Translations under genes and position numbers: made by a program | Shown: in pieces, positions 22,616 through 35,926 of the stretch | How the letters are laid out: every line of letters starts with the position of its first letter | Position numbering within the stretch: the stretch's first letter is position 1 | Origin: Candidatus Eisenbacteria bacterium | GTDB taxonomy: Bacteria > Eisenbacteria > RBG-16-71-46 > CAIMUX01 > VGJL01 | Assembly: GCA_016867495.1 (NCBI GenBank) | Contig: VGJL01000011.1 | Location: 1-35,926 of the forward strand | Direction of reading: 5' to 3' | DNA length: 35,926 bases | Notes under the pieces: model-generated | What the model was told of the DNA's origin: nothing | What the model saw: only the letters and a program-made list of their open reading frames with translations | Database searches by the model: none

Positions 22616-22967
22616 GAGAGGGGCCTCCTTCCAGTCTGTCTGTGGCCTGCTCCGGCCTGCCTGTCGCCGAAGCCGCACTCGCCCCGGCTGGCTGCAAGTG
22701 GCGTGCCGCGGAGGCCGCTGCTCGTGCCATCGCGACAGGCTCCGGCGCGAGGTAGAAAGAGGCCGTCGCAAGAGGGCGGTCAAAGCGGGTATCTTTCGGC
22801 AGTATCTCAGGAAACGGATTCTCGGGAGGCGGCGTTTGCTGAAGCGGCACGGACGGTCGAGGCGGTTCCTGCAAGAGGAGAGTGCAAAACCCGAGCCTCC
22901 CTCGAGGCCTCAGGCGCAGAATGCAATCGCGGGGCCATCGATTTGCACTTGGCAATGCGCACCGCTG
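22616..22967. other. Divergent intergenic region of about 350 bp
   Basis: This lies between the lipoprotein and M23-like genes. Both neighbouring frames stay open through it, which is common at this GC content. A weak plus-strand promoter (GTCAAA at 22779-22784, 18 bases, TATCTC at 22803-22808) is the best I can see, and I found no convincing minus-strand promoter. GGGAGG at 22824-22829 stands six bases before an in-frame TTG at 22836, an alternative start for the M23-like gene. Confidence 0.5.
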
Positions 22968-25244: not shown

Positions 25245-26207
25245 ATGGAGACGGGGTGGCTCGACTTTGAGAAGCCGATCATTGAGCTCGAGCAGAAGAT
25301 CGAGGATCTCAAGACGGTGTCGGACAAGGGGGATGCGGAGACATCGGATGAGCTGCGCCGCCTCGAGGCCGAGGCGGCGCGTCTCCGCGCGGAGACATAC
25401 GCGAGCCTGACCCCCTGGCAGAAGGTCCAGATGGCGAGGCATCCGCGGCGTCCTTACACGCTGGACTACATCCAGCGGCTGTTCGGCGAGTTCGTCGAGC
25501 TGCACGGGGATCGCCGCTTCGCCGACGATCGCGCCATTGTGGGCGGGATCGCCCGCTTCGAGGGACGCCCCGTGATGGTGGTCGGACACCAGAAAGGGCG
25601 GACCACGAAGGAGAATCTCGTCCGCAACTTCGGGATGCCGCACCCGGAGGGATACCGCAAGGCGCTGCGGCTGATGCGCCTCGCGGAGAAGTTCGGCAAT
25701 CCCGTCGTCTGCTTGGTGGACACGCCGGGCGCCTATCCAGGCGTTGGCGCGGAGGAGCGAGGTCAAGGAGAGGCGATCGCGAGGAACATCCTCGAGATGG
25801 CGGTCATCCGCGTGCCGATCGTTGTCGTCGTGATCGGCGAAGGCGGCTCGGGAGGGGCCCTTGCCCTCGCCGTGGGAGATGAGGTGCTGATGCTCGAGAA
25901 CGCGATCTACTCGGTGATATCGCCCGAGGGGTGCGCGGCGATCCTCTGGAAGGATCAGGCCAAGGCCAAGGAGGCGGCGGAGGCGTTGCGCCTGACCGCG
26001 CGGGACCTTGCCTCTCTCGATGTCGTGACTCGGATCGTCCCGGAGCCTCTCGGCGGCGCCCACCGAGATCTCGAGGCGATGTGCGAGACGCTGCGGGGCG
26101 AGCTGAGGCGGAGCCTCGGCAGACTGTCCTCGCTGGCCCCGGACGAGATGATCAAACATCGGCAGGCCGCCTACAGGCGCATGGGGGTCTTCGCCGAAAC
26201 GAGCTGA
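25245..26207 (+). CDS. accA: Acetyl-CoA carboxylase carboxyltransferase subunit alpha
   Basis: Half of the carboxyltransferase that moves CO2 from biotin to acetyl-CoA in the first step of fatty-acid synthesis; it pairs with AccD, which is not in the window. At 320 residues it has the usual length. The N-terminal coiled coil (LEQKIEDLK) and the crotonase-fold segments VDTPGAYPGVGAEERGQGEA and IGEGGSGGALALAVGD are textbook. The start follows CCCGGAGGAGCG only 12 bases after the M23-like stop, so it is probably read from the same transcript, an unusual partnership. Confidence 0.97.
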   Translation: METGWLDFEKPIIELEQKIEDLKTVSDKGDAETSDELRRLEAEAARLRAETYASLTPWQKVQMARHPRRPYTLDYIQRLFGEFVELHGDRRFADDRAIVGGIARFEGRPVMVVGHQKGRTTKENLVRNFGMPHPEGYRKALRLMRLAEKFGNPVVCLVDTPGAYPGVGAEERGQGEAIARNILEMAVIRVPIVVVVIGEGGSGGALALAVGDEVLMLENAIYSVISPEGCAAILWKDQAKAKEAAEALRLTARDLASLDVVTRIVPEPLGGAHRDLEAMCETLRGELRRSLGRLSSLAPDEMIKHRQAAYRRMGVFAETS

Positions 26208-31072: not shown

Positions 31073-33184
31073 ATGAGACGATCGGCGACGGTCACGGGAG
31101 TCGTGCGCGGCACCCGGCAGGGTTTCGCCTTCCTGACCCCTGATGCAGGAGCAGAGGATCTCTTCATCGCGCAGGAGAATCTGCATGGCGCGATCCACGC
31201 GGACCGCGTCGAAGCGACGCTCACGCGCCGATCGCCGCACGACTTTCGCTCCGAGGCGGTCGTCGAACGGATTCTGGAGCGGACGCGCCCCCTGATGACG
31301 GGCAACCCCGTCAGGTTGGCGCGGAGCTGGTTCGTCGTTCCGGATCAGCCGGTGCTGCCCCCCCGGATCCGCCTGCTGGCCGGAGCTCAGAGGATCGTCG
31401 AGGGGACGAAGATCCTCTTCCGGTTGGCGGAGGGCGCGCCCGGAGGGACGCTCGCCGCTCGATTCGAGGGAGTGCTGGGCGACGCGGAGGACCCGGCCCT
31501 CGATGCCGTGGTCGTCGCGACGGCTTTCGGGCTGAGAACGCGCTTCCCGGACGCGGCCATCGACGAGGCGCTCGCCGTGTCACGCCGCGACGACCCCGAG
31601 GAGATGGCCCGCCGCTGTGCCTATCGCGGCCGCTTCGTGCTGACGATCGACCCGGAGACGGCAAAGGACTTCGACGACGCGGTCTCCATCCAGAGGAGCG
31701 CCGCAGGCTATCACCTGCAGGTCCACATAGCCGATGTCTCCTGGTTCGTGGAGGAGGGGGGCGAGATCGATCGCGAGGCGGCGTTGCGCGGCACGAGCGT
31801 CTACTTCCCCGGAGGCGTGATCCCGATGCTGCCCGAGGTCCTATCGAACGAGACGGCGAGCCTTGCCCCGGGCTGCGATCGAAGGGTCCTGACCGCGGAG
31901 ATAGACCTCGACGGGGAAGGGGCCCCGTCTTCGGTCCGCTTGCGGGAAGGTCTGATCAGGAGCGAGGCGCGGCTGCATTACGAGCAGGCCCAGTCGATCC
32001 TCGATGACGGGATGGATGACAGCGAGCCAAGCCGCTCCCTTTCCATCATGGCGGATCTGGCCGCCAAGCTGCGGCGCCGGAGACTCGCGGAGGGGGGATT
32101 CGACCTCTCCATTCCCGAGACGGAGGTCGAGCTCGACGGCGGCGGGATGCCGGTTGCCCTCCGCCGCCACCGGACCCTGGAGACGAACCGAATCATCGAG
32201 GAGTTCATGATCCTGACGAACCGAGCCGTCGCGAGGTTCGTCGCCGACCGATTGATGCCACTTCTCTTCCGGGTCCACGAGGAGCCCGATCGGCGCGCCC
32301 TCGAGCAGTTCGGGGAGATCGCGCTGACTCTCTATCCGGGGGCCTCGGGCCGCGACGTGGAGACCGTCCCGGCCCTGCGCAAGTTCCTGATGGGTCTGCC
32401 TGAGGACCCTATGCGACGGATCCTCCATGGCTTCTTCCTGCGGAGCCTCAAGCAGGCGGTCTACTCGCCGACCGACACGGGGCACTTCGGCCTCGGCATC
32501 GATCGCTACTGCCACTTCACGTCGCCGATCCGGCGGTACCCGGATCTCTTCAATCACCGCCTCGTTCGCTGGCTGCTGAAGAACGAGCTGCCGGGACGCG
32601 TCGGGGCGACCCGAGTGGCCGGATGGCGAGATAGGGCGGAAGCGCTTGCGACCGCCTGCAGCCGGACGGAAAGGACCGCCGAGCGGGCTGAGCGGGAGAT
32701 CGTGCGACTCAAGGTCCTCCGGTGGGCGGCCGCGAGACTCGGGAAGGAGTTTCGCGGGCGGGTCGTAGGGATGGTGACTTCGGGCCTCTTCGTGGAACTC
32801 GATGAGTTTCCCGTCGAGGGTTTCGTTCCCCGTGCTACATTGCACGCGGGGGCGAGACTGGTCGAGGACCGGCTGGCCTTCGTGGAGAAGCGCAGCCGCT
32901 GGGAACTGAGGCTGGGGGACGGCGTCTGCGTGCAGGTGGCGCGCGTCGATCTGCGGGGGCGGCAGATCGACTTCAGGCTCCTCCCCGATCGTCCGGGCAG
33001 CGGGAGGAGGGGGGCAGGAGGTGCCGCGGCGGGTTCGATGGGCGCCCAGGTCGGCCGCGCGGGGAAGAGCGGGGTGCGCAAGAAGGAACCTGGTCGCGAT
33101 GGAAGACGGTCCCGCCGGTCCGTTGCCGGCAAAAGCAAGAGGACGGTCCGTCGACCCCGCAGGGGGGGAGGAGGACGGCGATGA
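31073..33184 (+). CDS. rnr: Ribonuclease R (RNB-family 3'-5' exoribonuclease)
   Basis: Processive exoribonuclease that degrades structured RNA. The cold-shock-like N-terminus (GVVRGTRQGFAFLTPD) leads into the RNB domain. The catalytic aspartates are in IDPETAKDFDDAV (Asp193, 199, 201, 202). HFTSPIRRYPDL is the conserved RNB end motif. An S1 domain follows (FRGRVVGMVTSGLFVELDEF), then a Lys/Arg-rich tail typical of RNase R. It has 703 residues. I chose the ATG at 31073, eight bases after GGGAGG; the in-frame ATG at 31043 lies against the terminator tail and lacks a ribosome site. The stop overlaps the PilZ gene start as ATGA. Confidence 0.94.
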   Translation: MRRSATVTGVVRGTRQGFAFLTPDAGAEDLFIAQENLHGAIHADRVEATLTRRSPHDFRSEAVVERILERTRPLMTGNPVRLARSWFVVPDQPVLPPRIRLLAGAQRIVEGTKILFRLAEGAPGGTLAARFEGVLGDAEDPALDAVVVATAFGLRTRFPDAAIDEALAVSRRDDPEEMARRCAYRGRFVLTIDPETAKDFDDAVSIQRSAAGYHLQVHIADVSWFVEEGGEIDREAALRGTSVYFPGGVIPMLPEVLSNETASLAPGCDRRVLTAEIDLDGEGAPSSVRLREGLIRSEARLHYEQAQSILDDGMDDSEPSRSLSIMADLAAKLRRRRLAEGGFDLSIPETEVELDGGGMPVALRRHRTLETNRIIEEFMILTNRAVARFVADRLMPLLFRVHEEPDRRALEQFGEIALTLYPGASGRDVETVPALRKFLMGLPEDPMRRILHGFFLRSLKQAVYSPTDTGHFGLGIDRYCHFTSPIRRYPDLFNHRLVRWLLKNELPGRVGATRVAGWRDRAEALATACSRTERTAERAEREIVRLKVLRWAAARLGKEFRGRVVGMVTSGLFVELDEFPVEGFVPRATLHAGARLVEDRLAFVEKRSRWELRLGDGVCVQVARVDLRGRQIDFRLLPDRPGSGRRGAGGAAAGSMGAQVGRAGKSGVRKKEPGRDGRRSRRSVAGKSKRTVRRPRRGGGGRR

Positions 33185-33582
33185 TCTGGGATGGAAAGAT
33201 GGAGCGGCGCGGCCACCGACGGGCGGCGATTCGGATCGTGAGCGAGTTCGGCGATCCGGGCTCGGCGACGAGGATCGAGACGGTTGACTTCAGCGCCAGC
33301 GGGGTGAGCTTCTGGCTGAACCGGCCGATGCAGACGATGACAAAGCTCGCACTTCGTTTTGAATTCCCGGAATACGGAAACGGGGAGGCGCGCGCGGTGA
33401 GCGCGGAGGCGATCGTGGTCAGGTGCCAGAAGGACGCCGCCCCGGAGGGCCGGTGGATCGTCGCCGCGGCCTTCACCGGCCTGTCACCCGCCGATAGGGA
33501 GTTCATCTCCTCGTACGTCGACTGGCACCATCGGATGGGCATCGAGGGCTCGAGCGACCGGCTGGCTCCGGGCACGGGATAG
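33181..33582 (+). CDS. PilZ-domain protein, probable c-di-GMP receptor
   Basis: A 133-residue single-domain PilZ protein. The N-terminal ERRGHRRAAIRI supplies the RxxxR nucleotide-binding arginines, and DFSASGVSF is the (D/N)xSxxG motif, so both c-di-GMP-binding elements are present. The barrel ends near residue 110 (AFTGLSPADREFISSYV). Its ATGA overlap with rnr indicates co-translation. A second in-frame ATG at 33199 (MERRGHRR) is possible. Its output partner is not evident; the genes around it deal with RNA decay and surface export. Confidence 0.88.
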   Translation: MIWDGKMERRGHRRAAIRIVSEFGDPGSATRIETVDFSASGVSFWLNRPMQTMTKLALRFEFPEYGNGEARAVSAEAIVVRCQKDAAPEGRWIVAAAFTGLSPADREFISSYVDWHHRMGIEGSSDRLAPGTG

Positions 33583-33803: not shown

Positions 33804-34844
33804 ATGAATGCTCGTTACAGACGAGTGGCCTTCCTCGCCGCCGCGATCGTGCCTCTCGGCCTGGCTTGCTTGGCCGCGCCTGCCGGGGGGGAGAAGTACG
33901 CGGCGGAGTTCCTCCGGATCGGTGTGGGCGCCCGGGCTCTTGGCATGGGCGGGGCGTTCACCGCGGTGGCCGACGATGCATCGGCCGCCTACTGGAATCC
34001 GGCGGGTCTCGGGAGGATGGGGGAGTCGGAGATTCTCTTCATGCACGCCGAGCAGTTCGGCTCGCTCGCGACGCATGACTTCTTCGGGTATGTCCAGCCT
34101 CTCTGGCACGCGGGCGGGAGCCCCAGGTCATCAGTCGGGATCGCGGCGGTCCGCTTCGGGGTCGACGACATCCCGATCACGCGAGACGGATGGATCGACG
34201 CCGACCGCGACGGGCGCGCCGATCCTGACGAGATCGATCCCTCGCTCTTCCGCAAGGGGAGCGATGACGAGTGGGGAGTCCTCTTCTCCTACGCGCTCGC
34301 GATGGGCGGCCGGTGGAGCGCGGGAGGGAACCTCAAGGTTGTGCGGCAGGGGCTGCTCCAGAACACCTCTTTCGGGATGGGGGTCGACCTCGGCCTCCTC
34401 TGCGCGGCGAGGCGCGATCTCACTCTTGGTCTCAGGCTCTCCGACATCACGACGACGCAGGTTTCATGGGACACGGGGACTCGAGAAGTGGTGAACCCGT
34501 CCGTCACGCTCGGCTCGCGATGGACAGGCCAGGTCCCTGGAATCGGCGGGGAGCTCACGGCGGCGCTCGACATGCCGGTCACCTTCGATGGTCGCGCGAC
34601 GGCGAGCCAGTTCTCGCTTCGCGATCCAGGCATCGACAAGACCGGACCCGGAATCGGCTTCGACCTCCTGGCGGGATTCGAGTACTGGCTTGCGCGGGTC
34701 GCGGCCTTGAGAGTCGGCTCGAGCGCAGGGGAGTGGACCGCCGGAGCCGGAGTCCGCTATCGAGGCATGGGCGGGGACTATGCCTTCCTTCCTCATGACG
34801 ATCTGGGCGACACCCACAGGGTCTCCGCCTCAGTCCGCTTCTAG
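33804..34844 (+). CDS. porV: PorV/PorQ-family outer-membrane beta-barrel protein
   Basis: A 346-residue outer-membrane protein of the PorV/PorQ (UPF0164-like) family. The signal peptide ends near LAAPAGG. The family signature FLRIGVGARALGMGGAFTAVADDASAAYWNPAGL starts at about residue 36; its segments are unmistakable. Alternating strands end in a C-terminal Phe (VSASVRF), the barrel-insertion signal. In type IX secretion PorV carries cargo to PorU. A loop at residues 132-143 has Asp132, Asp134, Asp136, Gly137, Asp140 and Glu143, an exact EF-hand calcium pattern that the family does not need. GTGGAGAG precedes the ATG. Assignment to PorV rather than another PorQ-like member is tentative. Confidence 0.87.
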   Translation: MNARYRRVAFLAAAIVPLGLACLAAPAGGEKYAAEFLRIGVGARALGMGGAFTAVADDASAAYWNPAGLGRMGESEILFMHAEQFGSLATHDFFGYVQPLWHAGGSPRSSVGIAAVRFGVDDIPITRDGWIDADRDGRADPDEIDPSLFRKGSDDEWGVLFSYALAMGGRWSAGGNLKVVRQGLLQNTSFGMGVDLGLLCAARRDLTLGLRLSDITTTQVSWDTGTREVVNPSVTLGSRWTGQVPGIGGELTAALDMPVTFDGRATASQFSLRDPGIDKTGPGIGFDLLAGFEYWLARVAALRVGSSAGEWTAGAGVRYRGMGGDYAFLPHDDLGDTHRVSASVRF

Positions 34845-34997
34845 GCCCCGATCCCGAGCGTTGGCGCAAAACTGGCCGCTGCACGGCCGGGTCTGCTCAA
34901 TTCCTGCGTGCTCCGCAAGGACCAAGGGGGGAAGCACTGGCCTCTCCTTTCGTCGTCGCCCTCCTAACGAATAGCATGACAATGTGTTAACGCAGTT

Positions 34998-35017
34998 GGT
35001 CCGACCGCGATCGGACC
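34998..35017. repeat. Palindrome upstream of the sigma-54 promoter
   Basis: GGTCCGA and TCGGACC are perfect inverted arms around CCGCGA, ending nine bases before the -24 element. It could be an operator or activator site, though it lies closer than most enhancer sites. The rest of the 251-bp spacer (34845-35095) shows only a weak GGCCG/CGGCC hairpin at 34874-34888. Confidence 0.5.
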
Positions 35018-35025
35018 GGGCGCGC

Positions 35026-35040
35026 TGGCACTCCCCTTGC
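35026..35040 (+). promoter_or_regulatory. Sigma-54 (-24/-12) promoter
   Basis: TGGCAC, five bases, TTGC: an exact match to the sigma-54 core, with the invariant GG (35027-35028) and GC (35039-35040) ten bases apart. It lies 55 bases before the start codon of the next gene. Confidence 0.75.
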
Positions 35041-35095
35041 GCCACCATCCTCTGCTTGCCCCATCTCCGGCCGAGGGGCGGGCGGGAGGAACCTC

Positions 35096-35926
35096 ATGAC
35101 CCAGCAACCGGACGGATCCGTCCCGATGCGGATCGATCTCGCCAGCTCCGAAATCGAGGGAGGCGACTACATTTCCTGGGTCGACCCGGAGCAGGTGATC
35201 GCATGCGTCGCGGCCGCCCGGCCGCGCTCCTCGTTCGCCCGCTACCTGGAGCCGCGTCTGGCCGACCTCGACGCCAGCCTGGGGGCCGGGACTGAAGGAG
35301 GCTCTGGCTTGCCTCCGCGCGTTCGCACGCTCCTGCTCCGCCTGCGGCAGGCCCACGCCCGGATCTTCCGTGAGAATCAACTCGGAGCGCAGGAGCCCCG
35401 CAGCGTCCGGCTTGCGGTCGCCGTCGTCGAGGAGGGACGGACCTACTTCCTCAAAGCGACACGGTGCTGGATCTTCCTCCTGCGCGACGGAAGCGCGCAG
35501 CAGGTTGGCCCCGAGCCCGAGGCGGGCGTAGAGGGGGCCGAGACGCGAGGTCTGGGCAGCACCGACCGCATGAGCGTCGCCGTGACGTCCGTTGACGTCC
35601 ACCCGAACGACGTGGTGGTCCTGATCGCCGCCGAGACGGGCGAGGGTGTCAACCACCGGGCCGTGACGCGCGTCTTCGAGCAGAGCGTCGACCTCAAACG
35701 GGCCTGCGACGGCCTGGTCAACCTCTTTGGCCTCTGCTCGAGCGGCGCGGGCGCCGTGGCGATGCGGTTTGTCCCGGTCGGTCAAGGCGGCATCCCGGCG
35801 AATGGCAACTCCATTCTCCGCGATATCGCTCAGGATCTGGTCGTCGACTCTCGCGACGCATTTCCAATCCGAGAGGCGGGCGCGCGCTCGAATCGAGAAG
35901 CGGAGGCGGGCTCGGATCGAGAGACG
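35096..35926 (+). CDS. Degenerate PP2C-like protein, 3' end off the window
   Basis: 277 codons are visible and the frame is open at the window edge. The ATG follows GGGAGGA at ideal spacing. Residues 100-225 follow the strand order of a PPM/PP2C phosphatase: TYFLKATRCWIFLLRDGS stands where active enzymes have a GDSRxYLLRDG segment, HPNDVVVLIAAETG stands for the GDxLLLxSDG segment, and GAGAVAMRFVP for the last DN segment. All the metal-binding aspartates are replaced, so it is probably a pseudophosphatase or regulator. The tail is an Arg/Glu/Ala/Gly/Ser repeat. A sigma-54 promoter upstream suggests activator-dependent expression. The fold call rests on pattern only. Confidence 0.6.
   Translation, partial: MTQQPDGSVPMRIDLASSEIEGGDYISWVDPEQVIACVAAARPRSSFARYLEPRLADLDASLGAGTEGGSGLPPRVRTLLLRLRQAHARIFRENQLGAQEPRSVRLAVAVVEEGRTYFLKATRCWIFLLRDGSAQQVGPEPEAGVEGAETRGLGSTDRMSVAVTSVDVHPNDVVVLIAAETGEGVNHRAVTRVFEQSVDLKRACDGLVNLFGLCSSGAGAVAMRFVPVGQGGIPANGNSILRDIAQDLVVDSRDAFPIREAGARSNREAEAGSDRET

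Follow-up and report, generated by a model that had tools for sequence, protein, structure and literature searches.

The window, by which we mean the whole 35926-base stretch of DNA analysed here, is contig C11 of an assembly that totals 3.35 Mb and is divided into 373 contigs. Its last part carries a PilZ-domain gene, a gene for a PorV-like protein, and the beginning of a third gene, referred to below as the downstream gene. The features of this region are collected in Table 1.

Table 1. Features around the putative promoter near the end of the window.
Feature	Position	Strand	Remarks
PilZ-domain gene	33181-33582	+	Further syntenic anchor
PorV/UPF0164-like outer-membrane protein gene	33804-34844	+	Upstream neighbour, syntenic anchor
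20-bp imperfect palindrome GGTCCGACCGCGATCGGACC	34998-35017	.	9/10 symmetric pairs
-24 element TGGCAC	35026-35031	+	Sequence and exact pattern scan
-12 element TTGC	35037-35040	+	Sequence and exact pattern scan
Shine-Dalgarno-like GGAGGAA	35085-35091	+	4 nt ahead of ATG at 35096, read from sequence
Downstream gene, 5' part, N-terminal PP2C-fold domain	35096-35926	+	Runs off contig C11

Within the window, TGGCACNNNNNTTGC is matched exactly only by the sequence TGGCACTCCCCTTGC (35026-35040, + strand), where a first-order Markov model fitted on 336 kb of the same genome predicts 0.02 matches (2.0 for the genome). This analytic value was used instead of simulation, since with so small an expectation (0.02) a count of 0 in 200 runs says nothing. 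The GG and GC of the element are separated by 10 bp, which is the gap in the sigma-54 consensus, and the element lies 55 nt ahead of the ATG of the downstream gene. Against TGGCACG-N4-TTGCW it scores 10/12, the misses being T for G after CAC and G for W at the end. An earlier note on this DNA had described an exact TGGCAC-N5-TTGC match with correct GG to GC spacing ahead of a well-placed ribosome site, and both descriptions are borne out. It had also called this the only such promoter in 36 kb, which holds for the exact pattern and is doubtful otherwise, given that a site on the minus strand at 22693-22708 scores 11/12. This second site, CGGCACGCCACTTGCA, thus scores above the reported one, and is located 78 nt ahead of the ATG (22615, minus strand) of a small predicted lipoprotein.

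The downstream gene can be followed onto contig C5. Positions 35653-35925 of the window overlap C5 1-273 with 269 of 273 bases identical, which makes C5 very probably the continuation of C11, allowing for some variation between strains. C5 extends the reading frame by 564 aa, including a PEGA domain, and the joined gene is about 750 aa long, compared to 735-796 aa in three relatives, while two others are longer. A hydrophobic stretch in the protein is probably membrane-spanning. Further downstream, C5 encodes an MXAN_6640-type metalloprotease and a competence-type protein.

The structure predicted for the first 235 residues (pLDDT 84, pTM 0.83) was compared with known structures using Foldseek, which matched it to PppA (6jkv, E 4.4e-12, TM about 0.68) and tPphA (2j82, E 2.0e-11, TM about 0.65). 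The N-terminal domain is therefore modelled as a PP2C fold, like these PP2C-family phosphatases. Unlike them, it has no recognisable DGxGG, which is the metal-binding motif of PP2C phosphatases, and the PP2C-fold part of the protein gave no match in Pfam or NCBIfam. The motif is absent, by eye, from all six orthologue rows of the alignment, and because of this the domain is, as judged from sequence, a probable pseudophosphatase.

The earlier note proposed that the element is a sigma-54 promoter, took the absence of rpoN from the genome as the observation that would speak against it, and suggested looking for rpoN and enhancer-binding proteins near the next genes. The genome contains one rpoN (E 1.2e-61), and the translated end of this gene includes the sequence ARRTVAKYRE, which we take to be the RpoN box. 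Across the phylum, the sigma-54 DNA-binding domain is present in 45 of 47 genomes. There are 23 matches to Sigma54_activat in the window's genome, and the top 17 of them, at E 4.3e-37 or better, are strong. All 17 are on contigs other than C11 and C5; a single weak match (E 2.2e-7) lies 48 kb into C5. Inspection by eye of the upstream regions and their alignment gave no convincing shared activator motif.

The exact pattern TGGCAC-N5-TTGC occurs six times in the genome, compared to about 2.0 expected and two for the reversed pattern. According to gene maps, five of the six are between called genes, each facing one. They comprise the window's own site on C11; a site on C4 facing a Lamin Tail Domain protein; a site on C14 facing a small gene followed by two further genes, which we take to be hypA and hypB; a site on C27 facing a glycosyl transferase of family 2; and a site on C82 facing a gene without an assigned domain. 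The sixth, on C17, falls within a called gene, in antisense orientation. On C4 only 17 nt separate the site from the called ATG, and a later ATG, 63 nt on, is the likelier start. Random positions fall into between-gene, gene-facing places at a rate of 3.8%; against this rate, and with the window's site excluded, the placing of four of the remaining five exact sites has P = 1e-5. Similarly, of the sites scoring at least 10/12 in 336 kb, 8 of 15 lie outside called genes (against 1 of 20 when the motif is reversed), and four of these extragenic sites are at most 250 bp upstream of a same-strand gene start (none for the reversed motif); these positional rates are approximate, as the home-made gene caller misplaces some genes and missed, for example, an accA-like gene at 25245-26204. 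The 336-kb sample consists of 16 of 20 stretches of the window's genome, four that were wholly or mostly N having been left out, and it holds one exact match, compared with a mean of 0.77 for scrambled versions of the motif, which is no excess.

The related pattern TGGCAY-N5-TTGCW has five matches in the genome, three of them shared with the list above. Both new sites are between genes, one on C26 with a small predicted lipoprotein, and the other on C162. The latter site, TGGCATGCCTGTTGCA (G000 C162:538-553, L135), has an activator gene on one side and, on the other, a small gene whose product contains Sigma-70 region 4, an arrangement that could possibly represent a sigma-54 to sigma-70 cascade.

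A scan with a single protein found no relatives, and an alignment-based search gave four, the nearest named ones being three Candidatus Eisenbacteria assemblies and one labelled 'bacterium'. In the relatives, the order of genes is PilZ, PorV-like, BON-like, TPR and PP2C-fold/PEGA, where the Pfam hit to BON (E 0.019) is weak and does not reach its cut-off. In the window, PilZ and PorV-like are followed directly by PP2C-fold/PEGA. A correctly oriented site scoring 10-11/12 is present in the 200 bp ahead of the BON-like gene in 5 of 11 genomes, namely G002 (TGGCACGTCCGTTGCC), G003 (TGGCACATGGCTTGCA), G004 (TGGCACGAGGGTTGCG), G010 (TGGCATGCGGCTTGCA) and G012 (TGGCATCGAACTTGCT). The 11-genome count leaves out G007, where the start of the contig cuts the BON-like gene, and four weak matches to BON (E 0.0048 to 0.0094). 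In G004, G006 and G018 the start of the BON-like gene was placed by eye. As controls, such a site precedes 2 of 62 other gene starts within these loci and 3 of 239 gene starts in the 16 stretches of the window's genome. The difference between 5/11 and 2/62 has a Fisher P of 0.0006, in a count that was not blind, the sites in the relatives having been seen before the control was run. The flanking DNA aligns poorly, with a mean column identity of 40%, so that the -24/-12 element is conspicuous within otherwise diverged surroundings.

It is highly improbable that the element is a chance match, without meaning, in a 3.35-Mb high-GC genome. About two exact matches are indeed expected genome-wide, one of the six observed is antisense within a called gene, and the comparison with scrambles in the 336-kb sample shows no excess. 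Against this stand the between-gene position of the element, its orientation and its spacing to the ribosome site, the strong tendency of the remaining exact sites to lie between genes and face one, and the syntenic site in five relatives.

The syntenic site is missing from the other six relatives (G005, G006, G008, G011, G018 and G021), for one of which, G006, the upstream region is shortened by the contig start. G005 has TGGCATGCCCCTTGAC at the syntenic place, with GA replacing the required GC. In G018 and G021 the BON-like gene is preceded by TTGACA-N17-TATGTT in place of the sigma-54 site, and these are the only two occurrences of TTGACA-N16-18-TATGTT in 220264 strand-bases of relatives. 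They are located at about 4952 in L110 and about 6104 in L112 (reverse-complement coordinates), and their sequence suggests that the promoter type has changed at one operon. G021 also contains TGGCATGGTGCTTGCT (11/12), in L110 between 7990 and 8327, which points in the opposite direction, towards a divergent 580-aa gene.

A search of the window's genome with the BON-like profile found no match below E 0.19, and the TPR protein gave only generic matches, the best being 43% over 103 residues. In G001, which belongs to the same family, the PorV-like gene (68% identity) is followed by a different open frame, and neither the operon nor a -24/-12 site was found after it. The simplest reading of these sequences is that the head of the operon was lost in the window's lineage and that the promoter was left ahead of the third gene: with the BON-like and TPR genes missing here, the old operon promoter would now abut that gene. 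An assembly artefact, in which the two genes have dropped out and the true downstream gene is BON-like, would fit the fragmentation into 373 contigs. We regard this as unlikely, given that no copy of either gene was found in the rest of the assembly, whose completeness is rated at 100%, and that the stretch from promoter to ATG has its own ribosome site.

A further alternative is that the element is a decayed sigma-54 relic, and that the third gene has been run from another promoter since the loss of the operon head. Both genes that stand behind the promoter in relatives are gone here, G005 carries the GA variant, and G001 is without the whole block at this place, all of which would be consistent with decay. 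In the window, however, TGGCAC, TTGC and the spacing between them are still perfect, and the ribosome site is at a normal distance. A scan of 34780-35150 for sigma-70-like promoters, which covers one promoter type only, found none. A relic is therefore considered very unlikely.

It is concluded that 35026-35040 is most probably a sigma-54 (RpoN) promoter, inherited from a BON-like/TPR/PP2C-fold-PEGA operon of related Eisenbacteria-type genomes, which would here have lost its two leading genes. The proposal of the earlier note that this is a sigma-54 promoter is well supported by the presence of rpoN, by the activator genes elsewhere in the genome, and by the position being kept in 5 of 11 relatives. 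The sigma-54 holoenzyme characteristically waits for an activator before starting transcription. The same mechanism is described in the parts of PMC3162934 considered here. RNA polymerase with sigma-54 would thus bind TGGCAC-N5-TTGC and stay closed, until one of the enhancer-binding proteins of the genome acts on it from an upstream site. Transcription would start near 35052, a position inferred from the usual location of the -12 element, and continue into the gene at 35096. What was the promoter of the three-gene operon would then read straight into its third gene. Both promoter activity and the involvement of an activator are inferred from sequence.

The palindrome that the earlier note placed just upstream of the promoter is present, and ends 8 bp before the -24 element, spanning approximately -54 to -35 relative to the predicted start. 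Palindromes as good as this one occur six times in the window. The further suggestion that it may bind the activator or a repressor is not supported, the palindrome being unique in the genome and absent from relatives. The genome scan proposed in the note was run, and at 0 or 1 mismatch located the palindrome nowhere else; with 2 mismatches there are 22 other places, compared to 15 for a reversed control. No matching palindrome was found in the upstream regions of relatives. G004 has a different quasi-palindrome, CCATGCGATCCCATGG (L037 7353-7368), at a near-identical position ahead of its -24 element.

A lineage-specific operator, through which a repressor or activator controls the -24/-12 promoter, seems doubtful. 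The 9/10 pairing, the closeness to the -24 element and the occurrence of an equally good palindrome in only 9 of 1000 simulated 251-bp intergenic regions would favour it, as would the quasi-palindrome of G004, which differs in sequence and holds nearly the same position. It is opposed by the lack of copies in the genome at 0-1 mismatch and in relatives, and by the fact that 7-bp arms with a spacer of up to 10 occur in 215 of 1000 such simulated regions. In addition, sigma-54 activator sites usually sit further upstream. A role of the palindrome as a 3'-end hairpin of the PorV-like transcript, serving in processing or termination independently of the promoter, is likewise rather doubtful. The surrounding RNA does fold to -21.4 kcal/mol (z = -1.7), but there is no T run, no terminator-like site was found, and the palindrome lies about 150 bp past the PorV-like stop codon. 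The possibility of an intergenic riboswitch was considered and dropped, as there is no Rfam match at E up to 5 in 34700-35200; no family is over its cut-off in the whole window, and G002 gave one chance-level match. On its sequence, the palindrome is a striking yet unconserved feature that is easily over-read.

A more elaborate history can be put forward only tentatively. The promoter type of the operon may have switched within one class, between sigma-54 and the housekeeping-type TTGACA-N17-TATGTT; loss of the operon head may have handed the sigma-54 promoter to the PP2C-fold/PEGA pseudophosphatase gene; and a new palindromic operator may have been added.

A literature search found no studies of gene regulation for this candidate phylum, to which the present locus adds a probable sigma-54 promoter, conserved in several relatives, together with its operon. 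The promoter is an ordinary one, of an already known kind, and the case shows that sigma-54 promoters of this sort can be found by reading sequence alone. The promoter has probably survived the genes that it originally drove, and in this respect the locus has a modest bearing on the evolution of operons.

In its two elements, its GG-N10-GC arrangement, its intergenic position facing a gene, and the occurrence in the same genome of rpoN and of enhancer-binding proteins, the site resembles the -24/-12 promoters of sigma-54 (RpoN). It differs from consensus sigma-54 promoters in the base after TTGC, which is G rather than A or T. In the portion of PMC12316311 consulted, TGGCAC and TGC are separated by 5 to 7 nt; the word 'Eisenbacteria' is absent from its main text. 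Within the parts of Francke et al. (2011; PMC3162934) considered, the BON-like/TPR/PP2C-fold-PEGA operon is not among the systems met. The locus nevertheless resembles the sigma-54 control of cell-surface genes described there, in that the gene driven by the putative promoter codes for a PEGA-domain protein that is predicted to be a membrane protein, and stands beside PorV-like and PilZ genes.
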